Positions 1,441 through 52,125 of a DNA stretch of 64,000 bases are shown in pieces (the stretch's first letter is position 1; each line of letters starts with the position of its first letter). Both the position numbers and the translations under genes were made by a program. Source of the DNA: Fimbriimonadaceae bacterium (GTDB taxonomy: Bacteria > Armatimonadota > Fimbriimonadia > Fimbriimonadales > Fimbriimonadaceae). The notes beneath the pieces were generated by a model. That model searched no databases. It was not told the DNA's origin and saw only the letters and a program-made list of their open reading frames with translations. Location: the NCBI GenBank assembly GCA_023957775.1, contig JAMLGR010000006.1:1-64000 (forward strand). The letters run 5' to 3'.

Positions 1441-1509
1441 GGACGTGCCCGGCGGGGTGCGCGCCCGCGGCCGTTTGTCGGGTCATCGAGGGTGGGAGTA
1501 AGAGAGTCA

Positions 1510-3273: not shown

Positions 3274-3282
3274 CTCAAACCC

Positions 3283-4497: not shown

Positions 4498-4513
4498 CCG
4501 ATAGGAGAAGAGG

Positions 4514-7002: not shown

Positions 7003-7875
7003 ATGACTCGAAAGCGTGCCTTTACGTTGGTCGAGCTACTCACGGTGATTGCGATCATCGCGTTGTTGGCCGCCATCGCCTTTCCGGTGTTGGCTCGGTC
7101 CAAGGACAATGCCAACCGCAGTTCGGACATAGCGAACATGAACTCGATTCGGACGGCGTTGCAGCTGTACCGCGTCGACCAGGGGGCCTATCCTCCCGCG
7201 CTGTTGGGTTACGCGACGCTTTACGCGACGGGTCCAAACGCCGGGAACGTGATGCCGGCATCCCAGGTCCGTGGCTTCCTTTATCCTCGCCGGGTGGACT
7301 CATCCAAGACGTTCCAGCCCGCGTACGCGCGTTACGGAAACGCGGACATCACCACGGCGGTCTGGCCCCCGGCCGACCCGCGGCCGCTGGGCTCGGCGCC
7401 GGTGTTGGATCTCAACGGCGACGGTTCGGTGGACTCGAACGACGACGTTGCGGGTGCGCGTCAGGCCTTCGGGCCCTCGGACGTGGTGAAGCGCCCCAAC
7501 CCGAACAACGCCGCCGAGAACATCGAGAACGACCCCAATCCTACGATCAACGCGTACTTCTACAAGATCAGCGGCTACGACGTGTCCGAGGTGCCCACGG
7601 GCGGCGGGGCCTCGCGATGGGAGCTGCGCTATGCGAAGTTCTGGACGACGTGGGGGCTGACCACGGGCGGCGCCGACGACGATCCGCGCCAATTGGGCTA
7701 CACCGATCCGCCGGACGGCACCGTGGTCACGTGGGACAGCTACTTCCGCGAGTTGGATGCGTCGGGGCAGGCGACCCGCGCGAACCGGGACGTAGTGTTG
7801 TTCCTCGGAGGCGGGGCGCGGACGTTCGATTCCAGGGCGATTTCGGAGCGCTCGTGGCGCGTGGTGGCCCGCTGA
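7003..7875 (+). CDS. Type IV prepilin-like protein (GspG/PilE type) with dockerin-like Ca loop
   Basis: A 290-aa prepilin of the pilus operon. The leader MTRKRA ends before FTLVELLTVIAII, giving cleavage after A6 and the conserved +5 glutamate (E11). The N-terminal helix continues into DNANRSSDIANMNSIRTALQLYRVDQGAYP, typical of GspG/major pilin folds. At about 137-148 the motif DLNGDGSVDSND is an EF-hand/dockerin-type calcium loop, unusual as an insertion in a pilin. ATG at 7003 is preferred to the TTG at 6976, which overlaps the pilD stop. It could be the major pilin or a pseudopilin; the H-X9-DG pilins elsewhere in the window are other candidates for the major subunit. Confidence 0.88.
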   Translation: MTRKRAFTLVELLTVIAIIALLAAIAFPVLARSKDNANRSSDIANMNSIRTALQLYRVDQGAYPPALLGYATLYATGPNAGNVMPASQVRGFLYPRRVDSSKTFQPAYARYGNADITTAVWPPADPRPLGSAPVLDLNGDGSVDSNDDVAGARQAFGPSDVVKRPNPNNAAENIENDPNPTINAYFYKISGYDVSEVPTGGGASRWELRYAKFWTTWGLTTGGADDDPRQLGYTDPPDGTVVTWDSYFRELDASGQATRANRDVVLFLGGGARTFDSRAISERSWRVVAR

Positions 7876-7912
7876 AGACCGTGGCGGACCGGGGCAGAAC
7901 AAGGAGCATTTG

Positions 7913-9799
7913 ATGATTCGCAACAGGCGCACGGCTGGAACCACGCTGATCGAGGTCCTGGTGGTCATCGTGATCTTCCTGATCGGCATTCTCGCGGTCG
8001 TTCAGGTGTTTCCGGGCGGGTTCAAGGTCTTGCGCGCGACGCGGGACCAGTCGGTCGCGACGGCCCTCTCCCGGGCCGAGATCGAGCGGATCAAGGCGAA
8101 CAGCGCGCAGTTGCCGGAGATGGTGCTCCCGGTCCTCTACACATGGATAGCGGGCGGGGTCGTGATCTCCGCGGACACCGAGCGCGGGCCGGACGACATC
8201 GGTCCGGTCGCCGCAGGGCTCGACCAGAACGGCGTGCTCTACGACGCCTCGAACAACGCGCTGGGCTCTTGGCCGTATCTGAGCGGAGCGAACGTGCAGC
8301 GCCGAGTCATCGGCGAAGGGCGCCGCGTGCCCGCGCCGCGCGTCATCGGGGCCGAATACGGCGGCCTGTTGGTGCTTCAGTTCGGGCCGGTGGTGTTCAA
8401 TCCCCAGTACCAGAGCCTCTTCCAGGTGTATGGCAACGACATGATCGCCCGCGAGGGGGCGCCGGACGCGTTCTCCCGCAGGCGGGACTACCTCTTCTAT
8501 CTGGAGGACATCGACGACGCCTCGGGGCAACTGTGGCTTCCGAGCGGGCCGACGAACCGCACGTATCGGCTCTCGTTCAGCGCGTGGGTCAGCGAAGGCG
8601 GCGACTACTATCGGCACGACGTGGTCGACGCGACGATTCCCGTGCGCGCCAATCTCGGTTGGGTGCCTTTCCAGCTTTCCAACTACGCTCCTCTGGGTGC
8701 TGGGGAGACGTACCTGGGCGCTGAGTTCGACTCGGTGCAGGTGCAGCGGCGCTTCGACCAGCTCCCGAGCGGCGTCGGGTTCACCGCGGGCGAGCCTTAC
8801 GAGTACAAGCTGCTCGATGCGAATCTCGGCCTTCTCCTGTTCAACCCGGCGGGGGCGACGTTCACCGAGCGGCGGCCCGGCGGCAGGAGCATTCCGCTGA
8901 TGGCCCGGGTGAGCTACGACGTGTGGGACTGGCGCATTCTCCGCGACGAGTTTCGGGTCCCGGATCTCGGCGCCGCGCAGCAGAAGCTCACGCTGGGCAA
9001 CCTCAAGGTGCTCGGCAACCGAGACGTGGACGGGCTTCGGTACGGGGGCCTTGGTTTCGACGTCGCAGATGGCGCGGGCGGAGTCGAGCCACGCGATTTT
9101 GTGCTCGTCGATCTCGACACGGGCGCCGTGGTCACGCAGGACTCGTACCGGGTGGATCGGTCGCTCGGCGTGGTCACGTTCCTCGATGCCGACGGCGACG
9201 GCACGAACGGCATCCAAGGGCGCATGACCCTGCCCGGGGCGGCCGCCGCGACCGGTGTCACGCTCGGGGGGCGCAACGTGCGCGCCCTGTACCATGCGGT
9301 GGGCGAGTGGTCCGTGCAGATTCTCAAGCCGGCAGCGCTCTACTCGGTCACCGACGCGGTGCCGGTCGGCGTCGGCCAGTACTACGTGGGCCAGACGCCC
9401 GACAATCCGGTGGGTTTGCCCACGCGCGTGTACTTCCCGAAGATGGATTTGGGCCGCAAGGTGACGATCGCCGAGGTTTGGTACCGCGACGGCGGCGGCG
9501 CGCTCAAGCTGTTGGAGAACGTGGACTTCGTCATTCAGGGCACGCCGCCCGACGCGACGGGGCTGCCCTACATCGACATCCGCAGCGTGGATCCCGGTGC
9601 GCAAACGTTCGACTATGCGACCTACGGGTACGCGCTGCGCGGAGTGCGCGGCGCGTCGGTTTCGGTCCGCGTGCTGCACAACCCCTCGTTCCTCTCGCTC
9701 GGCGGCAACGCGGCCGACAACATGGCTTCGCTCGAGCAGTGGGGCCGCGACTGGCGCCGCACGGAGACGGAGACGTTCCTGCAGCGGGGTGAGAAATGA
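7913..9799 (+). CDS. Giant PilV/GspI-like minor pseudopilin
   Basis: A 628-aa protein with a class III leader: TAG then TTLIEVLVVIVIFLIG, with the +5 glutamate at E14, so PilD should process it at G9. Only the first 60 residues are pilin-like (LIGILAVVQVFPGGFKVL, then an RAEIERIKAN helix). The remaining 560 residues are beta-rich and of unknown fold, with DADGDGTNG (425-433) as a probable Ca-binding loop. Minor pilins of this class are normally 130-200 aa. An AAGGAG site sits 6 nt before the ATG at 7913. The stop overlaps the next start (ATGA), indicating translational coupling. Likely role: priming or tip complex subunit (inference). Confidence 0.85.
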   Translation: MIRNRRTAGTTLIEVLVVIVIFLIGILAVVQVFPGGFKVLRATRDQSVATALSRAEIERIKANSAQLPEMVLPVLYTWIAGGVVISADTERGPDDIGPVAAGLDQNGVLYDASNNALGSWPYLSGANVQRRVIGEGRRVPAPRVIGAEYGGLLVLQFGPVVFNPQYQSLFQVYGNDMIAREGAPDAFSRRRDYLFYLEDIDDASGQLWLPSGPTNRTYRLSFSAWVSEGGDYYRHDVVDATIPVRANLGWVPFQLSNYAPLGAGETYLGAEFDSVQVQRRFDQLPSGVGFTAGEPYEYKLLDANLGLLLFNPAGATFTERRPGGRSIPLMARVSYDVWDWRILRDEFRVPDLGAAQQKLTLGNLKVLGNRDVDGLRYGGLGFDVADGAGGVEPRDFVLVDLDTGAVVTQDSYRVDRSLGVVTFLDADGDGTNGIQGRMTLPGAAAATGVTLGGRNVRALYHAVGEWSVQILKPAALYSVTDAVPVGVGQYYVGQTPDNPVGLPTRVYFPKMDLGRKVTIAEVWYRDGGGALKLLENVDFVIQGTPPDATGLPYIDIRSVDPGAQTFDYATYGYALRGVRGASVSVRVLHNPSFLSLGGNAADNMASLEQWGRDWRRTETETFLQRGEK

Positions 9800-11937
9800 T
9801 GATGCGCAATCGAAGGGCCTTCACGTTGATCGAACTGTTGACGGTGCTCGCGATCACCGGCGTGTTGATGACCCTGATCATCTACCCTGTGATCCAGAGC
9901 TTCAACCTCACCCGTTCCGCGCAGGGGTTCTCGGAGGCACAAGACCGGGCGCGCATTCTGATCGATCGGCTCTCCCGCGAAATCGGCAACGCCGCGGGGG
10001 TCCGCGCCAACGAAGGGCTCGCCGGGTCCGTGGCGGCCGTCGTGCCCGGCGCGGACGGCCAGCCGGAGACCGTGATCCTGCCCTACACGAAGCTCGACCT
10101 CGTCGTTCCCGCGCAAGGCGACCCCTCGGCGATCGTCAACGGGGCGTTCGTCGATCCGAACACTGGCAAAGGCGACCCGACGCTTCGCGCGCCGAAGGGG
10201 CAGGTCGTGCTTCCGGCCGCTCCGGGAGCGGCGATCGTCCGCTACTGGGTTGGGCTCCGCCGGCCCTTCGCCGCCGACCCCGGCGATCCCGCCGGGCGCG
10301 TGCCTCGCCGCTACGACAACCCCTACGACGGCCTCCTCACCGCGCGCAGCACGAACCGGGACAACCTGTACGTGCTCTACCGCGCCGAGGTGCAGCCGAT
10401 CATCTTCCAGAACGGGCAGTTCCGCGTCAACACGGCCCTGTTCCTCGACGTGGACAACGACGGCGTGCCGGACGATATCGACGATCCCGCGTTCTTCACG
10501 CTCCTTCCCGGCACCGACGTGTCCACCGAGCCGGTCAACAACCAGGGCGGAGCCTTGACGGCGGTCGGTCAAGCCAAGGCGCAGCGGATGCAGAACTGGC
10601 TGTCCCGGGCGTCGGTCGTCACCGAGATCAGCCGCTACGACATGATCCGGCCGATCTACGACAAGCGCACGCGCGCCGTGACGTACGACCGCAACGCCGC
10701 GAACGTTCTCAACGTGCCTCGGCTCGTGCCGCTGATCCAACTCAGGCCCACGCGGGTGACCAACGAGCCCGCCGAAGGCATGACCGCGGTCCGCCAAGGC
10801 CAAGAGGCCGAGGGGATGGATCGGGTGGCTCCCGACGTGTTCCGCACGCAGTACGGAGCGTGGACGAACCCCCTCGTGCGGCTGTGGCCGGCGGGTGCGA
10901 GCCCGCGGTACCTCGTCGCCCGCCCCGACCCGGCGGTTCCCGGGCTCAGCATCTTCGCGTACGAACCCGCCCTCGGCCCCGAATTGTCGACGGGTACGGA
11001 GCTGTTCGACATCGAGGAGTACGCGAGCAGCGTCGCCCTCAACCGGCGGTTCCCGTTCTCGCGCGCCACCGCCGCGGCGAACGTGAGGTCGGGCTGGCTC
11101 GGCAACCAGTCCGCCCGGGACCTTTTCGAACCGTTCGTGCTCGACTCGCGCGGCGGGCGCGTCGTCGCCAGCTTCGAAATCTCCGAAGTCGGGGATGCGT
11201 CGCAGCCGGTGGACCCGAACAATCCCCGCAACCTCCCGGTCGTGGCCACAGGGCCCGCGCTCACGCCGAACAACGATCCCGGCCTCGCGGCGGGGGTGTT
11301 CTCGGACGCTCAGTACGCCTCGATCAATCGGAAGTTCAACAAGATTTGGAACGACTACCCCGCGCTGCGGCCCAATCTGCACCGGTTCGTCGACCTTCGC
11401 GTGACGCCGACGGCCGACGGGACGGCCAGCCCGTTGAATCCGAATCCCGCCGTGGGATTCGATCGCGCGCGGATCGTTCCGGGAAGCGAAGTGGTTTTCG
11501 GGCCGGACCAGGTTCCGGGCGCGAACTACGGAGCGATGATCCGGTACACGCGCACAGTGGGCAACCCGGGGCCCAACCAGTACCGCCTCAACTACGTGAA
11601 CCTCGCCGAACCGACGGATTACACGCTGCTGGGGGTGCCGAACCCACCGGCGCAGTACACCGCCACGGACTTCGTCTCCGCGGTGATCCAGCCCCGGTTC
11701 CGTGCGGGGTATCTGCAGTTCAACTCCGATCCCAACGTGCCGTTGCCCCAAGGGAACATTTTCGTCTCGTACAGGTTCCAATTCACGGGAGTTGGCGATG
11801 TGGTCGCCGTCGACTACGATTCGCGCGAGATCATGTCGATCTTGCTGACGATTCGCAACTATCCGCAGACCACGCAGCCGGATCCGCAGTCGATCACCCT
11901 GAACGGCGCGGCGAAGGTGAGGAACTTCCTACGGTAA
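9796..11937 (+). CDS. Giant PilW/GspJ-like minor pseudopilin
   Basis: A 713-aa protein starting MMMRNRRA then FTLIELLTVLAITGVLMT, with E13 as the +5 glutamate. The helix continues into AQDRARILIDRLSREIGNA, characteristic of PilW/GspJ pseudopilins. Family members are usually 200-350 aa; here a long beta-rich region follows with a calcium-type loop DVDNDGVPDDIDD (218-230). The first ATG overlaps the stop of the preceding gene; ATGs at 9799 and 9802 are alternatives. Together with its two neighbours it corresponds to the PilV-PilW-PilX order of minor pilin clusters. The function of the large C-terminal part is unknown; surface adhesion or ligand binding is a guess. Confidence 0.85.
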   Translation: MMMRNRRAFTLIELLTVLAITGVLMTLIIYPVIQSFNLTRSAQGFSEAQDRARILIDRLSREIGNAAGVRANEGLAGSVAAVVPGADGQPETVILPYTKLDLVVPAQGDPSAIVNGAFVDPNTGKGDPTLRAPKGQVVLPAAPGAAIVRYWVGLRRPFAADPGDPAGRVPRRYDNPYDGLLTARSTNRDNLYVLYRAEVQPIIFQNGQFRVNTALFLDVDNDGVPDDIDDPAFFTLLPGTDVSTEPVNNQGGALTAVGQAKAQRMQNWLSRASVVTEISRYDMIRPIYDKRTRAVTYDRNAANVLNVPRLVPLIQLRPTRVTNEPAEGMTAVRQGQEAEGMDRVAPDVFRTQYGAWTNPLVRLWPAGASPRYLVARPDPAVPGLSIFAYEPALGPELSTGTELFDIEEYASSVALNRRFPFSRATAAANVRSGWLGNQSARDLFEPFVLDSRGGRVVASFEISEVGDASQPVDPNNPRNLPVVATGPALTPNNDPGLAAGVFSDAQYASINRKFNKIWNDYPALRPNLHRFVDLRVTPTADGTASPLNPNPAVGFDRARIVPGSEVVFGPDQVPGANYGAMIRYTRTVGNPGPNQYRLNYVNLAEPTDYTLLGVPNPPAQYTATDFVSAVIQPRFRAGYLQFNSDPNVPLPQGNIFVSYRFQFTGVGDVVAVDYDSREIMSILLTIRNYPQTTQPDPQSITLNGAAKVRNFLR

Positions 11938-11941
11938 CGCA

Positions 11942-14900
11942 ATGAGAGCCACCATGCGCAGAGACATTCGAGGGCGTGAGTCGGGACAGACGCTGATCAT
12001 CGCGTTGATCGTGCTGGGCGTTCTGCTCGTGCTGGGGATCGTGTTCCTCGGCATCATCAGCCGCAACATCAACACCGCGGGAAGGATCCAACAGCGGTCC
12101 CGAGCGACCGACCTGGCGGAGGCGGGGGTCCGGTACGCGCACGCGCAGCTCCTCAACTCCTCGGACGGCGCGGATTGGCGCGGGCAACCCACGCCGCCGA
12201 TCAGCGGCCGCGATCCCGACCTCGAGTACCTGCAGGCGGGCGGCCCCGACGGGCTCGGGTCTTACTTCCGCGTGAGCTTCAAGAGCGGGCGCGCCCTCGT
12301 GCGCGTCCGGTACGCGCCCAGCGACGCGAACATCTTCCAAACCAATCCGCAGGGCGCCCTCCGGCAACCGGGCCAGGCGCGCAACTACCTGATGATCGAG
12401 TCGGTCGGGCGGCCCGGCCAGGTGCTGGCGAACGACCCGACCACCGTGCTCAACGTGGACCGGACCGAGTCGCGCAAGATGACCGCGTTCGCTTCGATCG
12501 GCATCATCGAATCGGCGCGCTTCATCACGAACAAGTACAACGTGTCCACGCCTGCCGAGATCGGTGCGCCGCGCGAACTCGGCGTGCAGACCGAGGGCGT
12601 CAACGTCCAGGTGCCCGTGCAGATGGGCCAGCCGACGCCCATGTACAACTTCGGCAATCCGCCGACCCTGGCGGTCACGCCGATCGACTTCGGCGGCAGT
12701 CTCTACTCGAACGCCGACATCCTCGTCCACGGCGACGTGCGCGCCGATTTGAACTACACCCTTGGGGACTCGTGGAGCATCGCGGGCGACATTCGCGGGG
12801 TGGACGATCAGGCGCGGCTTCTGGTGACCCGTGCGGCGTGGAACACGGGCACCAACACGTGGCAGAGCACGACCACCCAGCTTCAAAACGGAACGAACCC
12901 CAGCCTCGACAACCGGAGCGCGGCTTTCGGCACCCTCCAAGGGGTGTTGAAGGACGGGCTGAGCGAAATCGACGCCCAGGGTTTCTCGAGGGGCGTCGCC
13001 CGCAAGACGCCGCCTTCGATCGAGCACGTCGACAGCGAAACGGGTCTGAACCGTTACCTCCTGCTCACCCGGGAAAGCGGCCGCTTCTCCGGCAACGGAA
13101 ACGACGGGCGCTTCGGCCATGGCCGCGGCGTCTACGTGGACAACTTTGCCGATCGCCAGATGCGCGTCGACGAGGAGGGCCGCGCCGAGGCGGGCACCGC
13201 GGAGGCCCTCTTCAGCGACTGGCTCAATCCGAACAACCCCAACGGCTCGTGGAAGGGGCCTTTCTACACGCCTCGGGGGGCCTATCTGCAGCTCCTGTCC
13301 GACGGGTTCGTGATCGTGAGAGACGGCGGCGCCCCCGGCCGGCAGCGCACGTGGCGGTTCCCCGACGGAACCGACACCAACAGCGGGGCGATTCGGTACC
13401 GGATCGGCAACGTGGGCGGCCAGGCGTACATCATCAACTCCTTCACGCCCGGCGGAAACGTCAATGCCGCGAACCCCAACTACGCGGCCGGCGTGCCGTT
13501 CAACGGCGTGCTGCTGTTCGAGGGCAACGTCCGCGTGCGCGGCGTGATTCCGGTGGACCAGCAGCTCACGGTCGTTTCCAACGCGACGATCTACGTCGAG
13601 GGCAGCATCACGAAAGGCCTTCCGGTCGACGCCGGCGGCAACCGCATCAACCGGCTGAGCCGCTCGATGCTCCTTCTGGCGGCCAAGGATTACGTCGCGA
13701 TCAACACGTCCCAATTCTTCGGCAACGGCATCGAGGACGTCGACGAGGTGGCCGAGCAGGCGGGCGCGGTCTCGTGGAATGCGGTGAAGATGCCGCTCGG
13801 CGGCGGCACGCTCACGCTGCGGGCCGAAGAGTTGCTCGACCCGTCGTCGAGCGCCAATCCCGCGCTTTGGCGGCCGTTCGCCCTGGACTACAGGGAGTTC
13901 ACCGATCCCGCCGTGGGAATGAACTCGGGTCCGGAGATCGACCAGCTCCTCATGCTCGCCCACTCGATGGAGGACGGCGCCGCGCCTTACTCGTTCGTCT
14001 CCCTCGACGTCAATCCCGCGCTGACGACGCCCACGTTCCTCTTTCCGATGAGCGCCTCGAACGCCGCGACGGGGCAGCCCCCCTATCTCAACGGGTACAT
14101 CACGCCCGGCTACGTGACCCCGAACTACATCCCGCTCTACGGGTTGGGAGTCGAGCCCTGGCAGCGCTTCGCGAAGTTCGAGCAGATCGGTTTCCCGATC
14201 GTGCGCCAGACGACGGCCTCCGTGTCGTCGAACACGCTGGTCGCCAGCGCGCCGGAGGGGACGTACCGGCTGCTGCTGCAGGACACCAGCGATCTGGTCT
14301 TCCGTCCCAACAACGTGGGCGGCGGCGCGACCAACGCGTGGTATCTCGCCCGGGCGGCGCTCATTCCGCACGACGTCCGCATCGAGGCGTCGATGTTCGC
14401 CGAGGAGGGCTCGGTGTTCGTGATTCCCGGACCGCCCTTCAATCCCAACCCCAACGACCGGCGCGACGCCTACGATCTCGCCATCGCCGGGTACGTGGCG
14501 CAAGGGCTGCCCGGCGCCCAAGCCCAGGCGCAGGCCAACCAGGACCGCCTCGACTCGTTCGGCGCCTTTCCGGAAATGCCCTTCTTCGGCGAGACCCCGG
14601 ACGTGCGCGTGACGATCGTGGGGGCCGTGAGCGAGAACATGCCTCCTCCCATCTCCCAGCAGGGCGAGTGGCTCAAGAAGTGGGGCTGGATTCCGCGCAA
14701 GTTCGGATCGACGGGCCGGCTCATCCCCAAGACGCACGTCCCGAACGGCTACGACATTCGCGACTCCGGGCCGGACCGCTACGTGCCGAACCTGGTCGTC
14801 GTCTACGATCCGGCCTTGGCCACCGGACGAGTCGGCGGATTCGACAACGCCAACGCTGTGATCCGCACCGACGCGCTCGGTCGCGTGCTGCCGCCGTTGC

Positions 14901-14953
14901 CGCGGCTACCGGTCAGTCCGACGCTGGCCTTCTTCGGAGAGGTGAATCCGTGA
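11942..14953 (+). CDS. Giant PilX/GspK-like pilus protein
   Basis: A 1003-aa protein whose N-terminus ESGQTLIIALIVLGVLLVLG, with no +5 glutamate, followed by an alanine-rich helix (RATDLAEAGVRYAHAQL), matches the PilX/GspK N-terminal pattern. GspK also lacks Glu5 and caps the pseudopilus tip. The rest (about residues 60-1003) is large, beta-rich and exported, with one segment (GVLLFEGNVRVRGVIPVDQQ, then TIYVEGSITKG) resembling the beta-roll of polymer-type surface domains. The stop and the next start share one base (TGATG). ATG at 11954 is an alternative start. By analogy it would sit at the pilus tip and connect to the giant exported protein that follows. Confidence 0.82.
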   Translation: MRATMRRDIRGRESGQTLIIALIVLGVLLVLGIVFLGIISRNINTAGRIQQRSRATDLAEAGVRYAHAQLLNSSDGADWRGQPTPPISGRDPDLEYLQAGGPDGLGSYFRVSFKSGRALVRVRYAPSDANIFQTNPQGALRQPGQARNYLMIESVGRPGQVLANDPTTVLNVDRTESRKMTAFASIGIIESARFITNKYNVSTPAEIGAPRELGVQTEGVNVQVPVQMGQPTPMYNFGNPPTLAVTPIDFGGSLYSNADILVHGDVRADLNYTLGDSWSIAGDIRGVDDQARLLVTRAAWNTGTNTWQSTTTQLQNGTNPSLDNRSAAFGTLQGVLKDGLSEIDAQGFSRGVARKTPPSIEHVDSETGLNRYLLLTRESGRFSGNGNDGRFGHGRGVYVDNFADRQMRVDEEGRAEAGTAEALFSDWLNPNNPNGSWKGPFYTPRGAYLQLLSDGFVIVRDGGAPGRQRTWRFPDGTDTNSGAIRYRIGNVGGQAYIINSFTPGGNVNAANPNYAAGVPFNGVLLFEGNVRVRGVIPVDQQLTVVSNATIYVEGSITKGLPVDAGGNRINRLSRSMLLLAAKDYVAINTSQFFGNGIEDVDEVAEQAGAVSWNAVKMPLGGGTLTLRAEELLDPSSSANPALWRPFALDYREFTDPAVGMNSGPEIDQLLMLAHSMEDGAAPYSFVSLDVNPALTTPTFLFPMSASNAATGQPPYLNGYITPGYVTPNYIPLYGLGVEPWQRFAKFEQIGFPIVRQTTASVSSNTLVASAPEGTYRLLLQDTSDLVFRPNNVGGGATNAWYLARAALIPHDVRIEASMFAEEGSVFVIPGPPFNPNPNDRRDAYDLAIAGYVAQGLPGAQAQAQANQDRLDSFGAFPEMPFFGETPDVRVTIVGAVSENMPPPISQQGEWLKKWGWIPRKFGSTGRLIPKTHVPNGYDIRDSGPDRYVPNLVVVYDPALATGRVGGFDNANAVIRTDALGRVLPPLPRLPVSPTLAFFGEVNP

Positions 14954-17900: not shown

Positions 17901-19665
17901 GTTCGTGAGCGGCAATACCTTGTTCGTGACGGGCTCCAGCTCGTTGCCCAGCATCGTGACGACTGGCTCGCCCTTCCCCGAGCGCGGAATCATCATGGGG
18001 ATGGACGCCCAGATCACGCCGAACGACCCGTTCCTGTTCTCAAACAGCGCGCGCCCGTGGCTGCACCAGCTCTACCAGCTTCGGAACTCCGGTGGACTCC
18101 AGCCGAACCCGGACATCCGCTGGCCGCAAGCGGCGGGAGTCGACTCGTTCGAGACCTGGCGCGTGCGGCTGCTCCAGACCCTCCTCGGCAACTCGACGGA
18201 CTCCGAGGGCGTGATCGGAGGCGACGGCACCCTGGTCGCCTGGAGCGACGACGGGCTGTTCGGCTTCTCGCGGCAGGACTTCCTCGTGTGCGACGAGGGG
18301 CGGCTGCTGAAAGTCGATCCCAGCGGCAATCCCCTTTGGACCTCCGATACGACGCTCAATTCCGGCATCGCCTTGGACGTGAACGCGGCCGGAAACGCGC
18401 GGCCGCTCGTTCGGCCGACCAAGGCGTACCCCGTCGGGCAGAACGGGACGCTCATCGTCGATACGGGCGCCAATCGGGTCGTGCGCATCGACTCGGCCGG
18501 TCGCGAAGTGCGGTCGATCGAGGCATTGAGTCTCGATCCGACGTATCGCCCGGAAGGCTTCCAGGCCAACGAGAGCGAGCTGCTTCGTCAGCCGCGCGAC
18601 GTGTTGACCTACACGACGTACGAATCGTCGCCGCCGTTGAGCAACTCCCGGCCCCTCGAGTACTGGGTCCACTACCTGATCGCGGACAGCGGCAACAACC
18701 GCTTGGTCGAACTGATCGACCGGTACGACGTGGACCCCGCGACGAGGCGGATCCGCGGCGTGATCCTCGACGCGAACAACAACCGCGCGCTTGGCGTGCT
18801 TTGGTGGCACTCGCCGGCCAACGTCTCGGGCAAGCAGTTCGCGTACAACGGATTGGCGCGCGTGTTCAACCAGGCCACCGGGCGCTACGTCTACGCCGCG
18901 AGCATCGGCGGATCGCTGCCGACGCGCGTGGACAGCGGCCTCGATGCCCCCTCGACCGATCCGCGATTCGTTCGCGAGAACTCGACGGGCAACGGCGGCG
19001 TGGTCCTGTTCGACGGGACCGGGACGGTCGTCGTGAACGAGATCGTGGTTCCCGAGGTGGGTCCGAACGTGTACTGGAATGAGGGTGCCTCGCTGAGTTT
19101 CAACTCGCCCCCGGTGCCGATGCACGCCAAGAAGCTCACGAACGTGAACTCGGTGACGATGCGTTACGTGAACTCCGGCGCAGGCCCCGAGATCGCGATG
19201 ATGATCACGGACTCGACCGGCGTGTACGAAGTCGTGGAGCGAGCGGATCCGCGTCCTCCGTTGACGCAGGACCCGTCCGGGAAGGCGTGGGTGGTGCGTT
19301 GGATGCTGCCGCGCGAGGCGTACCGTGTGATTCGTCGCTTCAATGCGCCGGTTGGACAGCCCTGGCTGGGCGTGCCGACGGCCTCCAACCCGCGCGACTT
19401 CCGTCCCGCCTACGCGCGCCGGCTCGATTCGGGCCAGGTGCTCGTGGTCAACAGTTGGGGCGGCTTGACGCGTGGCGGCGGATCCTACCAGGGCGAAGTG
19501 CTGGAGATCGAAGGCGGCGTCGACGCTTCGGAAACGAACTCCGTGCTCGGATTCGGGTTCACGAAGGTGAATCTCGGCTTTTACTCGTCCAGCATCCGTG
19601 CGGAGCTTCCGCCGGTGCAGGGCGCGAGAGGACTTGTGATACCGGTGTTTGCGGACCGGCGCTAG
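14953..19665 (+). CDS. Giant exported protein with beta-propeller-like repeats (PilY1 position)
   Basis: A 1570-aa protein with a signal peptide (MVAGLALLAAMTGAQPVTYA, cleavage near residue 27). Residues about 120-190 (YDVLLLSGYRLVSL, then FMDLGGVLWVDFAQG) resemble the class I amidotransferase-like/DUF4159-type fold used in Bacteroidota and planctomycete exported proteins. Later parts hold propeller-like repeats: VVVQDASGRLNAFDLFP near 450, GTLIVDTGANRVVRIDSAGR near 1164 and YLIADSGNNRLVELIDRY near 1241 (NHL type). A Ca loop DLDGDGNPDDG lies at 395-405. It is coupled to the PilX-like gene by a one-base overlap. Its place after pilVWX equals that of pilY1 in proteobacteria, a calcium-binding propeller tip adhesin, but direct homology is not shown. 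Confidence 0.8.
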   Translation: MYRRFWMVAGLALLAAMTGAQPVTYAQRGTEIRAGVLLVDSNKLPVINVPANDTPHVWFNLDSNRAVKPAGLNIYNPRASSQVSAAVETRWTLIASQVGGTAPAAGQRITKRDAAYWEVPLSAVGDQELSDYDVLLLSGYRLVSLNPIEREKLRRFMDLGGVLWVDFAQGATLDGINSFPVPFQLNATNLGLVRNADYFHPLLSYPNAVTEQNLAAMETDGALGLVLTTLASQGIGQLEPILSPLETDSLKIRSVVQDERGVSVGAAKVGDGYFVVTTHGVATALNRVVNAAGNYDVNNRYQAADPTADRSAEGASKLALNMASLRSANTQPGAGSRKAGTTPVDIGAPLLQRFEATLNRSASNLVHSPPIVFKGVVVMTSDDRVYVYDANPASDLDGDGNPDDGIADYSTGSNLDLVWVSAPMASPISSPTAFEIPNPRNGVPRDQVVVQDASGRLNAFDLFPLNANGQIQPLANAPTSYQLSGPGGPSSWDLGLPGRGPYAPTMHEGLLYVADTQDTGFNKIGRVWVADPSVGLNVSTTGTSWSVGGAGTNFIGDPSWSPTVGYLQIQDSSGGLDKVMYVPTRPNPAIPGPNTTAGITSLWLGVRGERVSRPEVNGNQLELPTRASLQGLDIFLPGADFKQLGVKLTMVHSNGDPYTATEMADRFTGRITQFQGRLNAELTPAGVGLVTNEIDASLPSPATVRVDYQIDWGTGQPNVTAQIIRGQLFLPDNANKNRRIIHGIAMGPDGSIYVAHSNQISGGAFYALREEGRGTFKLRYRYDMYREHSIRLNQAQPQMYSETLFDTDDLTTLPGIGALLGGPIQQLHFDGGPIVRDGVVYVVGGGHKGTGFVQVPLSIILAFKADPAAVEIRTGDLAPGFSIVQPDIARSTNQAMPEVFNTLQPNQFVYERQRGASSGTIRIDNLMATTRGPMLNALSTSQPIIIRRSGQPDVLIEPDRNGSTWSPLSWYIVLHGLRNHSPSFVSGNTLFVTGSSSLPSIVTTGSPFPERGIIMGMDAQITPNDPFLFSNSARPWLHQLYQLRNSGGLQPNPDIRWPQAAGVDSFETWRVRLLQTLLGNSTDSEGVIGGDGTLVAWSDDGLFGFSRQDFLVCDEGRLLKVDPSGNPLWTSDTTLNSGIALDVNAAGNARPLVRPTKAYPVGQNGTLIVDTGANRVVRIDSAGREVRSIEALSLDPTYRPEGFQANESELLRQPRDVLTYTTYESSPPLSNSRPLEYWVHYLIADSGNNRLVELIDRYDVDPATRRIRGVILDANNNRALGVLWWHSPANVSGKQFAYNGLARVFNQATGRYVYAASIGGSLPTRVDSGLDAPSTDPRFVRENSTGNGGVVLFDGTGTVVVNEIVVPEVGPNVYWNEGASLSFNSPPVPMHAKKLTNVNSVTMRYVNSGAGPEIAMMITDSTGVYEVVERADPRPPLTQDPSGKAWVVRWMLPREAYRVIRRFNAPVGQPWLGVPTASNPRDFRPAYARRLDSGQVLVVNSWGGLTRGGGSYQGEVLEIEGGVDASETNSVLGFGFTKVNLGFYSSSIRAELPPVQGARGLVIPVFADRR

Positions 19666-19674
19666 GAAATCGGA

Positions 19675-22600
19675 ATGATGATGAAAAGGCAGATCGGGTT
19701 GACGTTGGTCGCGGCCGCTTTGGTGGCGGGCGCGACAACCGCCTGGGCGCAGGATTTCAAGGCGTTCAAGGGCGACAACCAGCGCGTGGGACGCAACGAC
19801 CTGGCGGCCACCTCCGGCCCCGGGCGGGCCCTCCTGCGCTGGTGGCACCCGAACGTCGCGGATCCTGCGACCGGTTCCGTGCTCATCCGCAACAACACGG
19901 CGCCGAACCCCTGGACGGCGACCACCGGTCCTTGGATCAGTCCCGGTCCCGCCGAAGAAGCCAACCTCGTCTTCACCCCTCCTCCCGTCGATCGGGTTCC
20001 GCCCGATCCCCTTGAGGACGCGGCGACAGGGTACGCCGCCGACCCGGGGTACCTCTACGTACCGACGATCCCGTCCGCGGTCGGCTCCGACCCGACGATC
20101 CCGCAGAACGCCCTCGACCCGCTCGCCACGTTCACTTGGCGCGTCGAACCGGCGGATCCGATCAACCGATTCCCCCAGAGCTATGCGCTCTACGTTTGGC
20201 TCCCCAGCGGTCCGACCGACGTGGACCCCGGCCCAGGCGTGACCCTGAGCTATCCGCAACGGTACTTCGTCTACGAGGTCCTCTACGGGACCGGGCAACG
20301 CTGGATCGAAGTGATCGACACGTTCGTTTCGGGCGGTGGATGGGTCCGGATCGGCAACGGGGGCGCGCAGACGCTCCAGCGCTTCCCGTACGACGGTGTG
20401 AACCCGATCCTCGTGCGTCTGTACAACACCGTGCCGCGCGACGCGTTCGGCGCGTTGACGGATAATCCGGGCGCGACGCTCGTTTACGCCGACGCCGTGA
20501 AGGCCGAACCGCAGACCGGCTACTATGCCGCCACGCCGATCGTCGGCATGCACAACGGCGCGCCCGTCAGCACGATCGCGGCTCGGAACGAGCAGTCGGA
20601 AGGCGTGCGCGAAGGCGAGTCGGTCACGATCACCAAGGGTGTGGTGACCGCTTACGAGCACGACACGGGCAATGTCCGGTGGACGTTCTCGCCGCTCGAC
20701 GAGTCGGAGTTCACGGTGCAGCAGGACAACACGAGCGCCGGCGTCGCCGCGTCTCCGGCCTGGATTCCCGAAAGCTTCGCGCCGAACTACCGGGGAACGA
20801 ACTACCACGCCGCGCCGATCGTCGGCGCCTTGGGCTCGGCCTCCGCGATCACGTACTCGCCCACCCTCGACGACGGGACCTACGAAATCTACGCGTGGCT
20901 TCCCGGGGACGGCGGCGGCGAGCAGTTTGGCACCGCCGTGACCTACGAGGTGCACGAGGGCGCGACGACATCGACGTTCACCCTGGACCAGTCCGTCAAC
21001 GGAGGATGGGTGCGCGTGGGCAACCGCCGCTTTGCGCACCAGGAGTCCACTGCGGACCTCACCGTCTCCGTGCTGAACTACAGCGCGGGAGGCGACGTGG
21101 GGCGCAAAGCCTACGCGGACGCGATCCGATTCGTCGGCGCCGCCAACATGGCTATCAACTCCACGCCGGTTTTGGCGACCGCCCGGGTCCGCACGACCAA
21201 CGGGGGCGCCCCAACGCCCACGGACGTCGTGCTCGTCGCGACGGAGAACGGGCGTCTCTACTGCCTCGACGCGCTCGGCAACGGCGACGGGACCACCAAC
21301 GTCTACTGGACCTATCCGTCGACTCCGGATCCCGACGACGCGGCATGGACCGACCCCAACCAGGTGGTCGGGGTCGACGGTCCGAACGGGGTCGCCGAGA
21401 TGCCCATCGGATTCGACCTCAGCTCGGCGCTCGTCCAGACGGTGAGCCCGGGCGGCGTCCCCGAAGACCGCCTCTACATCGGCTCCCGCAACGGGCGCGT
21501 GTACTCGATCCATATGGATGGGCGCGGCGACATGGATCTGGCGAGGCGGGTGCCCGGGACTACGACGCGCGCCTGGACCTACCCCAACGACTACCCCGCG
21601 GCCGTGCAGACCAGTCTTCTGGGACCGATCGAAGGGTCGGTGGCGTTTGCGGACGTCGCTTCGGGACCGACGATCTACGTGCCGACGACGCAGGGGCGCA
21701 TGTATGCGCTGGACGCCATCGGAACCGCAGGCACCAAGACGACGTCGGTCCGCTGGCGTTATCCCGCAGCGACGGACGAGACGCTCGGTGCGATCCGGAC
21801 GACGCCCGCCATCGAGTTCGGCAACATCTACTTCGGAACCGATGCGATCGACGGCGCCCAGGACCCCCGGGGCCAACTGATTGCGCTCGATGCCGACACG
21901 GGTTCGCTCCAATGGACCTTCGACGGCACCGCCGGAGTCCCGGCGGGCGACTTCCGCGGTAGCCCGATCACCGTTCCCGCGGCCGAGATGGCGCCGGGGA
22001 CGATGCCGGACACGGTGTTCGTGGCGAACGAGAATCTCTTCGTGTACGCCGTGCGCGCCTCCGACGGAACGCTTCTCTGGTCGACGGACGAGCTCGGCTC
22101 GGGCGTGTCCGGCGCCCTCGGATTCACGCCGATGTCGGTGTTCGACAACTCGGGCACGGGAACGCGGATCGCGGCGCCGATGGTGCTTGTGCCCACGTCG
22201 GACGGCCGCTTCTCGGCGCTCTTTGCCCGCGACACGGACCTCAACCGGTTCGGCACCAAGCGCGGCTACGAGTTCATCACGGCCAGCGACTCCCTGACCG
22301 CGTCCCTCGCCGTCGGTCGGAACTGGATGTACGGCGCGGACATGGCCGGGAACCTGTACGGGTTTGACAACGACACGTTCAACACGGGCTACATCTCGCC
22401 GGGGAACCCTCCGGGACAGCAGACGGTCGTCGAGAACGACGCGTCGGGCGACATCTTCCGCGACGCCAAGATCAAGTTTGTCACCAAGGACACCTACCAG
22501 CAGTTGCGGGCCAACCCCCCCACCCTGACGTACGTCGAGTCGGTCGACCCCGGGCGCGAGGTCACCCGCGTCGCGTTCGACTGGGGTGAGACCCTGTACA

Positions 22601-25600
22601 TCCTGGTGTACGACTTCCCCTATCAGATCCAGCAGATTCCGGCGCCCAACGGCGCCACCACTCCGCCGATCGTCAACTACTCCTTCGCCACCGAGGGGGC
22701 GGCTATCCGGAACCTGGCGATCGAGAGCAAGCTGTTCGCCGGAAGCAGCCCGAACACGGCCGACTCCGGCTACACCGTGATCGCGTACTCCCTGCAGGGA
22801 GGCGGCGCGAACGCGCTGCCGCCGGGACGGGCCCGCGTCAGCGCCACGATCAGCACGACCGCCCTTTCGAATCCCGCGCGGGCGCAGACGATCGCTTTGG
22901 ACCCGGCGAACTCCCGCAAGGCGTTCGCGATCGGGAACCCGCTGGCGCTTGCCACCGCGTTCGATCCGAGCACGGGGGCTCCCTTGGCGGGGTACGGCAT
23001 CGGCTACTCGCCGGACGCCTCGCTGCCGGAGAATCTGGTGAACGGATCGCCCGACGTCGTCGGCACGGGAGCCCGCGAGGATCGACTGATCTCAAGCACG
23101 GGACTCCTTTCCCATGGCCAGGCCGGATCGAGCCGCATGGCGGTCTACGACCGGAGCATGATGACGCTCATCCTGGGCCCCGGCCGCGGCCTTTCCAACG
23201 TGCGCGTGGCCCGCGACGATCTGTCTTGGCGCAACCCGGCGAATGGGTCGTCGGTGGTCAAGCCCCTGCCGCCGCTGCTGTTCCCGAACTTCGAGGATTT
23301 GCCCTTCAACCGCCCCAACGGAAGCTTGGACTACCCGGACATGAAGCGGGAAGTGATCTCGGTGACGAAGGACCCGCTGGGCAATGCCGAGAACCCCGTG
23401 TTCAGCCCCGTCTCCCTCAATCCGCCGCTGAACGTGGACGAGAACAACCCGCTGCTGCGAACGCTGGTTCCCACCCTCATGGACTTCGAGGTGGCGGTTC
23501 CCAAGTTCCAGCCGGCCAACCTCCTGCTGATTCCCGACTCGACCGGCACCAACACGGTGGGCGGCTACACGGGCCGCGTGCAGGTGTACGTCGATGCGAA
23601 CGGCAACGGCGAGCTGGAGCAGTCCGGCCGTCGCGAGGCCTTCCGCAGCTTCACGCTCGGCGCGGGCGTCGGCATCGACGAGGCGATGAGCATCCCCACG
23701 CCGACGCTCGACCTCGGTCCTTTGGCGGCCGCCACCGGCTACTCGCCGATCGCGCCGTACGGGGCGGGCACTCCGTTCAGCCCCTGGGCGGGCGGGGCGT
23801 TCAACAACCTCTTCACGCCGTTCCGCGTGTTCAACGACGGCAACGTCAACATGTTGGACGTGCGATTGGCGCACGCGTCAAACGTGGGCGCCGGCGCCCC
23901 CCAGCCGTGGCCGATCTTTGCCTCGGGCAACCACGCGTTGGCGTGGTTGGACAGCCAGTGGTACGTGTGGTCGGACATCGATCCGGTGTTCGCGCTGACG
24001 TCGCAGGTCATCATCCAGAAGGCCCGCGTCGGGGACCGCGTCTCCACCGAGCTGCTCACGAACCCGCGACGTCGGGACAATCAGAACCTGGGCGTGTCCG
24101 CGGGGACGCTCCTGCCCGGGCCGACTCCGGCGCCGCCTCGGATCGCGGTGACGCCTCCGCTCGGCATGCCGGTGGGGACGTACAGCCAGATCATGCGCGT
24201 GATCGAGGATCGCAACGGCGACCTGTCGCTCGCGCTCGACGGGACGAACAACGGCCTCGAGCCTTACACCGACCCGACCCTGAACCTCGTGTTCAAGGTG
24301 CGCGAGACGCGGCTGACCAACAAGTTCACGACGAACACGGCCCCGATGGTCGACGATCCGTCGGTGATCGGGTCCGGCAGCTTCCAGCACAAGAACGCAC
24401 AGCCCGCGGCGATGCGCGACCTCAACGGCAACCTCGTGGTGGCGTTCGCTTCGAACCGCCCCGCGTTCAACGCGCCCCAGCCTCCCGCGGCGCCGCTGGT
24501 GGACGGTTGGCGGATCTACGTTGGTTCCGTGCGCGGCGCCACCCCTTCGGGCGGCGTTGGGTCCAGTCCGCTGGGGGATCTCGGAGCGTTCGTGCCCGCG
24601 AGCAACTCGCAGTGGGTCTCGCAGCAAGTCGGCGCCTATCCGAGCGTTCCCACGCCCGATATCCTGTTCGACGCGCAGCCCGGCGAGACGATCTTGGCGA
24701 ACACGGTCAAGTTCCGCGATCCCGCGTTCCCGTCGCAAGGCATGGTCGATCCGTTCAGCGGATCCGCGCTGACCACCGTCTACCTGGCGTTCGTCGGCGA
24801 CGCGGTCAAGCAGACGCCGGCCGGCCTCCAGAACGAGTCCAGACTGATGTTGGCCCCGACGACGGTTTCGGCCACCGGCACGGTCTCGCTGGGGGCGCCC
24901 GTGGTGCTTCCCAACGATCCTCGCGTCGAGAAGTCGAATCCCAGCGTGGTCCAGATCGGGTCTCGCGCGATCGTCTACTTCACGTTGGGAGGCACCGGCC
25001 ACAGCCAGGTCGCCTACGCGACCTACGATCCCACCAACCCCTCGTGGGCCGCCAACGGCGGCTGGAGCCGGACGAACATTCTTCCTCTGGGAACGGGCTT
25101 CGAGTCGGCGACCTCCCCGAGCGCTTCGGGCCGCGTCTACCGGGGCGCCCCGGTCTCGGGTCTGGGAACGGGGACTACCATCGTGGAAGTCGCGTTCGTC
25201 GGCAAGCTCAAGGGCCGTTCGATCAGCGATGTGTTTTACGGCCGAGTGCGCGTCGACGCCAGGAACGGTTCCTACACCACGGTGTACCTGCCGGAGCGCG
25301 GCTTGGACCGGATGACGGCTTCGGGCGAGCCGGGCGTGTACCAGACGGGCGGAGTGGAGTGGAACCCGCGCGACACCATCGCGTTCTACGAGAGCGTCAA
25401 CGGCGGGCCGTTGGTGGATATCGAGGTTCCCAACACGCGGAACTACGACCGCGACACCAACACGATGAGCTTCGACACGAAGCTCGGCGGGAAGGCGTTT
25501 GCGGACCTTTCGCTCGGTCGCCTGACCTTCACGTCGGCGACGTTGCCCCAAGGCGCGGAGCTTCGTGCGACCTACACGCCCCGCTACCTGCGGATCAGCG

Positions 25601-26241
25601 GCTCGAACCGTGCGGCGGGTCACTCGAGCCCGACGGTGCTGTTCGACAACCGCCTGATCGGGGAGTTCGGTTACTGGGCCCGGCCCAGCAACGTCGCGAT
25701 CGCCCCGTCGGACCCGGTGCGGCCCGCGCGGCTGGTGTTCGCGTACGGGCGTGGGGCGTCCGGAGAGGGCCAGACGGCGCGGCCGTATGTTCGGACCGCC
25801 CGGTTCGGCATCCAGCTCCCGACCGGCGTGCACACGCAGCCCAACGGCACGTTGACGAACTTCCAGGTCATTGGGGCGACGGGCTACTACCAAGTCGACC
25901 CGTCGGTCGGCCGTGTGTACTTCACGGATGTGGACGAGAATCGAGCGTTGACCGTCAGCTACACCGGACTCGATCCGTCGACGGGGGCGCAACTGCCCGG
26001 GCTTGCGATCTCCACGGTGGTGACGCTGGTTCCGGAGCGCGACGAGACCCCGCTCCCCATCGACCAGGCGGTGAACGAGACGCAGCTCACGGCCTTCCTC
26101 GACCCGTTCGATCCGGCACCTGCCGCGCAGCGAAGGCCCGGTCTGATCTGGATGTTCTATACGAGCACCCGGGCAGGCGGACCCGACTTGTACTTCCAGA
26201 CGATCGCGCCCCGCTTCACCCCGCTCGTTCCGGGCGGATAG
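19675..26241 (+). CDS. Giant exported protein: two golvesin-like domains plus PQQ-type propeller
   Basis: A 2188-aa protein with a signal peptide ending AQD (LVAAALVAGATTAWA). Two golvesin/xly-like carbohydrate-associated domains are recognisable at about 153-280 and 393-489 (GTYEIYAWLPG, then VNGGWVRVGNRRF and YADAIRFVG). Between about 520 and 900 seven blade-like repeats follow the PQQ/Kelch style: GRLYCLDALGN, GRVYSIHMDGR, GRMYALDAIG, GQLIALDADTGSLQW, FVYAVRASDGTLLW, GRFSALFARD, GNLYGFDND. A Ca-type loop DANGNGELE lies at 1307-1315. The last 300 residues are beta-rich and unassigned. It starts 9 nt after the previous gene and ends in a terminator, closing the operon. Likely a pilus tip adhesin or a secreted substrate of the machine (inference). 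Confidence 0.82.
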   Translation: MMMKRQIGLTLVAAALVAGATTAWAQDFKAFKGDNQRVGRNDLAATSGPGRALLRWWHPNVADPATGSVLIRNNTAPNPWTATTGPWISPGPAEEANLVFTPPPVDRVPPDPLEDAATGYAADPGYLYVPTIPSAVGSDPTIPQNALDPLATFTWRVEPADPINRFPQSYALYVWLPSGPTDVDPGPGVTLSYPQRYFVYEVLYGTGQRWIEVIDTFVSGGGWVRIGNGGAQTLQRFPYDGVNPILVRLYNTVPRDAFGALTDNPGATLVYADAVKAEPQTGYYAATPIVGMHNGAPVSTIAARNEQSEGVREGESVTITKGVVTAYEHDTGNVRWTFSPLDESEFTVQQDNTSAGVAASPAWIPESFAPNYRGTNYHAAPIVGALGSASAITYSPTLDDGTYEIYAWLPGDGGGEQFGTAVTYEVHEGATTSTFTLDQSVNGGWVRVGNRRFAHQESTADLTVSVLNYSAGGDVGRKAYADAIRFVGAANMAINSTPVLATARVRTTNGGAPTPTDVVLVATENGRLYCLDALGNGDGTTNVYWTYPSTPDPDDAAWTDPNQVVGVDGPNGVAEMPIGFDLSSALVQTVSPGGVPEDRLYIGSRNGRVYSIHMDGRGDMDLARRVPGTTTRAWTYPNDYPAAVQTSLLGPIEGSVAFADVASGPTIYVPTTQGRMYALDAIGTAGTKTTSVRWRYPAATDETLGAIRTTPAIEFGNIYFGTDAIDGAQDPRGQLIALDADTGSLQWTFDGTAGVPAGDFRGSPITVPAAEMAPGTMPDTVFVANENLFVYAVRASDGTLLWSTDELGSGVSGALGFTPMSVFDNSGTGTRIAAPMVLVPTSDGRFSALFARDTDLNRFGTKRGYEFITASDSLTASLAVGRNWMYGADMAGNLYGFDNDTFNTGYISPGNPPGQQTVVENDASGDIFRDAKIKFVTKDTYQQLRANPPTLTYVESVDPGREVTRVAFDWGETLYILVYDFPYQIQQIPAPNGATTPPIVNYSFATEGAAIRNLAIESKLFAGSSPNTADSGYTVIAYSLQGGGANALPPGRARVSATISTTALSNPARAQTIALDPANSRKAFAIGNPLALATAFDPSTGAPLAGYGIGYSPDASLPENLVNGSPDVVGTGAREDRLISSTGLLSHGQAGSSRMAVYDRSMMTLILGPGRGLSNVRVARDDLSWRNPANGSSVVKPLPPLLFPNFEDLPFNRPNGSLDYPDMKREVISVTKDPLGNAENPVFSPVSLNPPLNVDENNPLLRTLVPTLMDFEVAVPKFQPANLLLIPDSTGTNTVGGYTGRVQVYVDANGNGELEQSGRREAFRSFTLGAGVGIDEAMSIPTPTLDLGPLAAATGYSPIAPYGAGTPFSPWAGGAFNNLFTPFRVFNDGNVNMLDVRLAHASNVGAGAPQPWPIFASGNHALAWLDSQWYVWSDIDPVFALTSQVIIQKARVGDRVSTELLTNPRRRDNQNLGVSAGTLLPGPTPAPPRIAVTPPLGMPVGTYSQIMRVIEDRNGDLSLALDGTNNGLEPYTDPTLNLVFKVRETRLTNKFTTNTAPMVDDPSVIGSGSFQHKNAQPAAMRDLNGNLVVAFASNRPAFNAPQPPAAPLVDGWRIYVGSVRGATPSGGVGSSPLGDLGAFVPASNSQWVSQQVGAYPSVPTPDILFDAQPGETILANTVKFRDPAFPSQGMVDPFSGSALTTVYLAFVGDAVKQTPAGLQNESRLMLAPTTVSATGTVSLGAPVVLPNDPRVEKSNPSVVQIGSRAIVYFTLGGTGHSQVAYATYDPTNPSWAANGGWSRTNILPLGTGFESATSPSASGRVYRGAPVSGLGTGTTIVEVAFVGKLKGRSISDVFYGRVRVDARNGSYTTVYLPERGLDRMTASGEPGVYQTGGVEWNPRDTIAFYESVNGGPLVDIEVPNTRNYDRDTNTMSFDTKLGGKAFADLSLGRLTFTSATLPQGAELRATYTPRYLRISGSNRAAGHSSPTVLFDNRLIGEFGYWARPSNVAIAPSDPVRPARLVFAYGRGASGEGQTARPYVRTARFGIQLPTGVHTQPNGTLTNFQVIGATGYYQVDPSVGRVYFTDVDENRALTVSYTGLDPSTGAQLPGLAISTVVTLVPERDETPLPIDQAVNETQLTAFLDPFDPAPAAQRRPGLIWMFYTSTRAGGPDLYFQTIAPRFTPLVPGG

Positions 26242-26245: not shown

Positions 26246-26282
26246 CAAAAGGCCCCTCGAGCGAAACTCGAGGGGCTTTTTT
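26246..26282 (+). terminator. Intrinsic terminator closing the pilD-pseudopilin operon
   Basis: Stem of AAGCCCCTCGAGT type (GGCCCCTCGAG with CTCGAGGGGC, short CGAAA loop) followed by TTTTTT. Confidence 0.9.
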
Positions 26283-26506
26283 GCGTCCAAACGGCGTCAT
26301 CGGCGCCCGGATCTCCCCCCGCGCATCGCCAAAGCCGAGTATGATCAGCGTGATGGACTCGTCCCCGAACACCCTTCGCGATGGGTCCCGAACTCCCCGT
26401 TTGGCGGCCGTCGGCGGCGCCGTTCCTGCAAACTCCACGCTTTTTTCTTGGGAGCGAACCACTTGCCACGGGTATGGCGTCTTTGATGCGTGGTCGGCTT
26501 TCGACG
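26283..26506. other. Non-coding stretch before the pilM promoter
   Basis: No open frame with coding character or ribosome site is seen between the terminator and the pilM promoter. It probably holds only upstream regulatory DNA. Confidence 0.5.
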
Positions 26507-27790: not shown

Positions 27791-27799
27791 GAACCAAGC

Positions 27800-28690: not shown

Positions 28691-28702
28691 AGGAGAGTCA
28701 CT

Positions 28703-29497: not shown

Positions 29498-29524
29498 GCT
29501 GATCGAAGGAGTCCAGGTTTAAGC

Positions 29525-30277: not shown

Positions 30278-30357
30278 TAGTGACGGACGCGACGGCGGTG
30301 AGGACCGCCACGAAGTAAAGAGAATTTGGCAACGGCCCGAGAAGATCGGAGGAAATG

Positions 30358-31071: not shown

Positions 31072-31117
31072 GCCGCGCCCAATTGGTTTCGGATTCGAAG
31101 AGGGTTAGGAGGATATG

Positions 31118-50492: not shown

Positions 50493-50560
50493 GTGTTTGT
50501 TGACCTCCGCGGTGTGCGAGTGGAGTGGGGAGGCTGCAACATCCGTGCCACAGGGGGTGC

Positions 50561-50602
50561 AAAAGAAGAAGGGCGCCACTCCCCTTTCGGGTTGCGGCGC
50601 CC
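50561..50602 (-). terminator. Terminator after lipoprotein copy 1
   Basis: On the minus strand GGGCGCC / GGCGCCC stem with further pairing, followed by TTCTTCTTTT. Confidence 0.75.
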
Positions 50603-50630
50603 AGCCAAGTGCTGTCAGACGTTCGACTCG

Positions 50631-50849: not shown

Positions 50850-50850
50850 C

Positions 50851-51699: not shown

Positions 51700-51773
51700 G
51701 TTTCTCCTATTTGAATGATGAGGCACTCAGATTTCTGAATGAATGAGAGCCAGATGGGGTGCCTCCAGCGAGC

Positions 51774-51802: not shown

Positions 51803-51839
51803 GGGGGCCCGTGGCCGCGGGGGCTTGAAGCGAAACGCG

Positions 51840-51881: not shown

Positions 51882-51905
51882 GGCTGTTTCAGCGGCGAAC
51901 GACCG

Positions 51906-52124: not shown

Positions 52125-52125
52125 C

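Follow-up and report, generated by a model that had tools for sequence, protein, structure and literature searches.

The locus encodes three giant minor pilins followed without interruption by two even larger exported proteins. The window analysed is a stretch of 64,000 nucleotides from a Fimbriimonadaceae bacterium (contig JAMLGR010000006.1, positions 1 to 64,000), and the genes and domains located in it below lie on its + strand. An earlier note on this DNA, made from the sequence alone, had proposed an enlarged pilus tip assembly or a secretion module. The five large ORFs of 628, 713, 1003, 1570 and 2188 aa were found where it had placed them and nearly without gaps: V (PilV/GspI-type minor pilin, 7913..9799), W (PilW/GspJ-type minor pilin, 9796..11937), X (PilX/GspK-type putative tip pilin, 11942..14953) and the exported proteins b5 (14953..19665) and b6 (19675..26241), all overlapping or at most 9 nt apart. 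They are preceded by the gene of a small GspG/FimU-like pilin of 290 aa (7003..7875, ATG at 7003).

This block sits between two groups of pilus genes. Upstream are the ORFs of the extension ATPase PilB, the retraction ATPase PilT and the platform protein PilC (1492..5746), with pilT itself at C6:3409-4431 and exceeding the TIGR01420 cut-off, and the prepilin peptidase gene pilD, assigned from its sequence (5903..6979). Downstream are pilM, pilN, pilO, pilP, a separate PilQ STN protein (STN 1.1e-06) and the secretin PilQ (Secretin 1.1e-32), at 26573..32764. PilB, PilT, PilC, PilD and PilM-N-O-P-Q encoded together make up the gene set of a retractile type IVa pilus. Since the five large genes overlap or are separated by 9 nt or less, and a strong intrinsic terminator follows b6 (26247..26283; RNA fold of -29.5 kcal/mol, z -5.4, stem then T6), the run from the small pilin to b6 appears to close a transcription unit, with pilM starting another. 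The terminator was overlooked by the consensus promoter/terminator scan and came out by RNA folding; the same scan gave a promoter-like site about 40-65 nt 5' of pilM.

Since the window is GC-rich and also contains long antisense ORFs, ORF length alone proves nothing, and it is conservation that does the proving. The locus regions were examined in 28 relatives from 13 families, 27 of which (12 families) had a contig long enough. The order small pilin-V-W-X-b5 was kept in all 27, with giant sizes throughout (V 503-764, W 509-847, X 799-1158, b5 1344-1764 and b6 2187-3811 aa), and b6 adjoined b5 in 26, G135 alone having it on a different contig. These conserved frames, giant sizes and order rule out ORFs arising by chance from the high GC content. 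Nor are the long C-terminal parts separate genes fused by sequencing error, since six single-contig genomes (G085, G117, G123, G022, G062 and G081) carry the block as the same single ORFs, which also disposes of a frameshift artefact. The two objections that the earlier note had raised against itself, absence from relatives and fusion by sequencing error, thus fall to the 27 relatives and to the single-contig genomes, and the five-gene block, for which it had suggested a synteny search in Armatimonadota, recurs in 26 of the 27.

Conservation was also followed on the flanks and across the phylum. On the 5' side, pilD adjoins the block in 25 of the 28 relatives. The linkage to pilM-Q is looser, since pilM follows b6 in 18 relatives only and the adjacency is lost in several families. 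Small pilin-V-W-X-b5(-b6) is the constant core, unlike the whole pilB-to-pilQ order. In pairwise comparison, V, W, X, b5 and b6 diverge in step with PilC and PilM (Spearman 0.71-0.88), which is what vertical inheritance together with the pilus core would produce. In the phylum, b5 was found in 106 of 151 genomes by single-sequence search and in 45 of 61 by profile search; in these 61 genomes, the profile did not find it in several Armatimonadota families. X was found in 143 of the 151 genomes and 99 of 100 genera, where weak matches may reflect parts of the protein only, and b6 homologues in 70 of the 151. The source genome gave one match each for b5, X and b6. In addition, an independent collection was scanned with two short peptide patterns from the close b5 homologue set; among the matches listed, the same gene order was seen at about 40 loci, and the loci retrieved with these two patterns look like Armatimonadota only. 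One locus of this collection comes from a MAG labelled Methanoregulaceae archaeon, for which a misbinned contig is the simplest explanation.

Four consecutive prepilin genes in fixed order, those of the small pilin, V, W and X, occupy the H, I, J and K positions. The small pilin shows an N_methyl match (9.9e-07) and a GspG-type N-terminus (1.2e-12). The PilV- and PilW-like N-termini attributed previously to the 628- and 713-aa proteins were confirmed, both starting with N_methyl/prepilin sequences: the PilV model matched 28 of 29 V homologues; for W, 28 of 29 homologues matched the Verru_Chthon C/D models as well as generic prepilin models, and 21 of 29 matched HpsC. The N-termini of V and W also resemble GspI/GspH and HpsC models. 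Glu5 (residue +5 after the cleavage site) is present in 56 of 57 V sequences, 56 of 59 W sequences and nearly all small pilins. With a class III N-terminus and an extra C-terminal module, V and W have the build of modular pilins, their homologues measuring 503-847 aa. Sequence searches with the V, W and X profiles against solved structures returned pilin stems or nothing.

Enlarged pilins have precedents. PilB and PilC of Streptococcus sanguinis carry bulky modules on pilin stems, which are tip-exposed and adhesive (PMC8179133, PMC9934059); those modules are single known domains, whereas in this locus the enlargement affects three minor pilins in a row, and X, with 1003 aa, exceeds the 860-aa extreme case of the modular-pilin survey (PMC8179133). 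The Verru_Chthon A-D and cyanobacterial HpsA-D sets are likewise prepilin-like and give weak matches to the N-termini of X, V and W. For TIGR02596, 02598, 02599 and 02600 (the last a model of 1296 positions), these matches were N-terminal only and far below the curated cut-offs. We know of no b5 or b6 counterpart in the Verru_Chthon or Hps sets, and no papers on Verru_Chthon cassettes were found in the literature search.

X, in the K position, departs from its neighbors. The PilX-like start ascribed to the 1003-aa protein stands, in that it has a class III-type N-terminus ending G|QTLII, though no N_methyl match was found there. Glu5 is absent in all 72 X sequences, a lack that marks the K subunit capping the filament (PMC9934059). 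Matches of X homologues to family models were weak and confined to few members, namely GspK in 5 of 31 (best 0.00048), PilX_N in one (0.079) and Verru_Chthon A, and the X of the window matched neither GspK nor PilX_N (NF037980, PF14341). The AlphaFold model (pLDDT 87.9, pTM 0.88) has a long pilin helix at residues 16-72 and is mostly beta thereafter. With this model, Foldseek gave no significant match, and VIA-align ranked ComZ (6qvi) first, with a Z of 13.2, 327 aligned residues and an rmsd of 7.1 Å, the next chain scoring 8.0. The alignment spans residue 47 to the last residue of the X model and residues 18 to 519 of ComZ. The chains ranking after ComZ (Z <=8.0) align to a jelly-roll at residues 593-811 (13718..14374), which resembles carbohydrate-binding modules of the CBM35/36/6 kind (Z 7-8, a fold match only).

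ComZ of Thermus thermophilus is a GspK-like pilin whose sheet holds a large inserted beta-solenoid; it binds DNA and has been proposed to sit at the tip (PMC6561018). X is like it in predicted fold over the whole of ComZ and apparently also in having a large beta-rich insertion in a GspK-like pilin; it differs in being about twice as long, in its extra jelly-roll, in being followed by b5 and b6 and in sequence, the X profile not finding 6qvi at E 5. Given this rmsd, which suggests that the domains are placed differently, and this lack of sequence similarity, the likeness is one of fold and not proof of descent. Without Glu5 and with a ComZ-like predicted fold, X would cap the filament as the K subunit, presumably at the tip.

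The same resemblance might point to a competence pilus, whose enlarged tip would be mainly a DNA receptor, with X binding DNA through its beta-rich insertion and the pilus pulling it to ComEA/ComEC. ComZ, which binds DNA and for which a tip position has been proposed (PMC6561018), is the only PDB chain standing out for X, and ComEC was present in 21 of 21 genomes searched, with ComEA-type domains in 19 of 21, the source genome included. However, the presence of ComEC and ComEA, both widespread proteins, is no proof of what this pilus does. X has an acidic pI of 5.5, published descriptions of the ComZ system include no counterpart of b5 and b6, and Golvesin domains are found on b6 and a carbohydrate-binding-type jelly roll on X. 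A pilus devoted mainly to DNA uptake is considered unlikely.

The gene directly after pilX in the minor pilin cluster is b5, in the position of pilY1. The block is collinear with the proteobacterial fimU-pilV-pilW-pilX-pilY1 cluster (PMC7541494, PMC13190605), and in both systems an exported propeller protein, with a differing N-terminal domain and the motif Dx[DN]xDGxxD in the propeller, comes after four minor pilins (PMC7541494, PMC8833165). Leaders of the Sec type were recognized by eye in b5 and b6. The N-terminal part of b5 contains a DUF4159-like domain, detected in 23 of 23 homologues (best 5e-08) and matched here at residues 123-168 (15319..15456). The AlphaFold model of residues 371-1570 (pLDDT 86.1) consists of two beta-propellers. 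The first, at about residues 371-1108 (16063..18276), aligns to eight-bladed designs (Cake8, 6tjg, Z 19.7, 293 aligned), and the second, at about 1108-1570 (18274..19662), to the six-bladed NHL type (Pizza6, 6i39, Z 21.6, 243 aligned), with NHL profile matches as well. The propeller reported earlier in the last protein, b6, was recovered (PQQ_2 4.9e-12, matched at residues 655-804); the two of b5 had been missed.

At the start of the first b5 propeller lies DLDGDGNPD (residues 395-403, 16135..16161), an EF-hand-like motif of the PilY1 kind that follows Dx[DN]xDGxxD, the calcium consensus reported for the PilY1 propeller (PMC8833165). The strict consensus was found in 50 of 60 b5 homologues, nearly always in the same place, against 0.3 expected after shuffling, and seldom occurs in the other proteins encoded by the block. 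That b5 is a true PilY1 member was rejected on the negative domain search: PF05567 (T4P_PilY1) was found in none of 23 b5 members and in none of the b6 homologues scanned, and in 0 of 151 genomes, although no control genome gave a match either. The chain 3hx6 was not among the matches listed for the b5 propeller model, an absence that excludes nothing. Compared with PilY1, b5 lacks a PF05567 match, has two propellers instead of one and contains one cysteine against 7-30 (PMC13190605), only two cysteines being present in total across the small pilin, V, W, X, b5 and b6. The best reading is that b5 is a functional counterpart of PilY1 that is not recognizable as its relative by sequence and that would bind calcium.

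A second giant exported protein and V, W and X of well over the usual size also set this locus apart from the PilY1 system. The propeller of b6 is closest to BamB/PQQ models and shares blade homology with b5 (hhalign E 1.8e-07), and a Golvesin_C domain was found at residues 351-487 (20725..21135; Pfam PF25275, 4.9e-11) and in four b6 homologues. Since its propeller is of the BamB type and the genes adjoin pilM-Q in the window, b5 and b6 might be outer-membrane or envelope scaffolds that share the operon only and aid secretin or pilus biogenesis. This is very improbable: the terminator parts b6 from pilM, several families lack the adjacency of these two genes, b5 comes after pilX exactly as pilY1 does, and display suits the Golvesin domains and the calcium loop of the PilY1 type better than a scaffold role does.

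Secretion was the other function considered. A pseudopilus-like set could push b5, b6, other proteins or polysaccharide through the secretin in a type II or Hps-like manner, which would agree with the GspI/GspH- and HpsC-like N-termini of V and W, the weakly GspK-like X and the Sec-type leaders of b5 and b6. Type II systems work without a retraction ATPase, whereas here PilT adjoins PilB and PilC and is encoded upstream of the block in 22 of the 28 relatives. In addition, the genome has two other secretins, one of them beside a PilB-type ATPase (C6:91690 and C6:92784), which is likely a separate type II system. Given PilT in the locus and these other secretins, the secretion module left as an alternative by the earlier note becomes the lesser of its two proposals, and we regard it as rather improbable.

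In our best reading, to which we give a probability of about 0.7, the block encodes the complex that primes the retractile type IVa pilus of Armatimonadota and forms its tip. In Myxococcus, pilus extension is primed by a complex of FimU-PilV-PilW-PilX and PilY1, which mediates adhesion at the tip and has been proposed to stop retraction (PMC7541494), and it is the same kinds and order of genes, together with the adjoining PilB and PilT, that make this role the most likely. The enlarged tip assembly suggested at the outset is thus the best-supported reading, through the collinear gene order, the absence of Glu5 and ComZ-like predicted fold of X, the propellers and calcium motif of b5 and the usual linkage to pilB-T-C-D.

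According to this tip-complex model, the small pilin, V, W and X would be the H, I, J and K subunits of a single complex, V and W being prepilins with large C-terminal parts. X would be the filament cap, given its missing Glu5, its ComZ-like inserted domain set and its jelly-roll. The b5 protein would sit on the X cap, made calcium-dependent by its putative calcium loop, and b6 would add a PQQ-type propeller and Golvesin domains, presumed to be sugar-binding. The resulting tip of about 650 kDa (the summed mass of V, W, X, b5 and b6 is about 655 kDa) would prime assembly, be displayed outside through the secretin, bind polysaccharide or surfaces, possibly capture DNA, and stop retraction. Polysaccharide is suggested as a ligand by the Golvesin and jelly-roll domains, and DNA by the likeness to ComZ and the presence of ComEC/ComEA. 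The best reading of the pilus function is adhesion, possibly with DNA capture. Fimbriimonas ginsengisoli is described as non-motile and fimbriated, and the authors assign its pili to attachment (PMC4072686), which fits adhesion. The complete picture is more tentative, at slightly less than even odds: a tip organelle of about 650 kDa whose minor pilins are, in three cases out of four, giant and modular, with a two-propeller protein of separate origin and the same calcium loop in place of PilY1, and with a second propeller protein added.

All parts are of known kinds, giant modular pilins being already represented by ComZ, S. sanguinis PilB/PilC and the Verru_Chthon and Hps cassettes, and it is their combination and phylum-wide conservation that appear undescribed. 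The statement that no such set had been described is consistent with the literature searched; the Fimbriimonas genome paper, in the parts consulted, counts pilin genes and does not mention the set (PMC4072686). Three features are new: the joint enlargement of V, W and X on a phylum-wide scale; a predicted ComZ-like cap outside Thermus; and, judging from sequence, a propeller protein at the pilY1 position with the PilY1 calcium loop and no detectable PilY1 domain. To our knowledge, ComZ has been seen in Thermus only.

In type IVa pili, PilY1 is regarded as both tip adhesin and mechanosensor. In much of this phylum, its operon position and calcium motif are held by a protein without a detectable PilY1 domain. 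Provided that the proteins do sit at the tip, the locus would offer an independent way to test what such a tip requires, namely a cap without Glu5, a calcium-locked propeller and a sugar-binding module. The Armatimonadota would then have a phylum-wide alternative to the PilY1 tip, and with it a problem of size, that is, how a tip of about 650 kDa passes the secretin.

PilQ was encoded by two separate genes (30355-32764), one for an STN-domain protein of 238 aa with a glycine-rich tail and the other for the secretin, a protein of 549 aa in which a glycine-rich stretch was also present. When the loci of relatives were read, the stand-alone STN gene was found again in many of them.

The block coding for the proposed giant pilus tip was also found on a contig filed as a Methanoregulaceae archaeon MAG (L122, JADZEW010000021.1), with b5, one of the two exported propeller proteins, at 46% identity; this contig was probably misbinned. 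Two small-pilin genes, not one, precede the giant PilV-like pilin gene in some families (loci L083, L086, L101 and L103). The six tip-set proteins encoded in the window (7003-26241) total about 6,400 residues, of which only two are cysteines.

Four more prepilin N-termini, in open frames of 291-352 aa, lie at 50412-60110 on the minus strand, and N_methyl matches total 38 in the whole genome. Genome-wide, five PilT-family genes passed the family cut-off (TIGR01420), and three PilT-family genes stand in tandem on contig C1 (330535-333715). Outside the window, at 84-95 kb of its contig (C6), a second secretin is encoded with a PilB-type ATPase and a 154-aa pilin; these genes probably belong to a distinct system, either for type II secretion or for a pilus.
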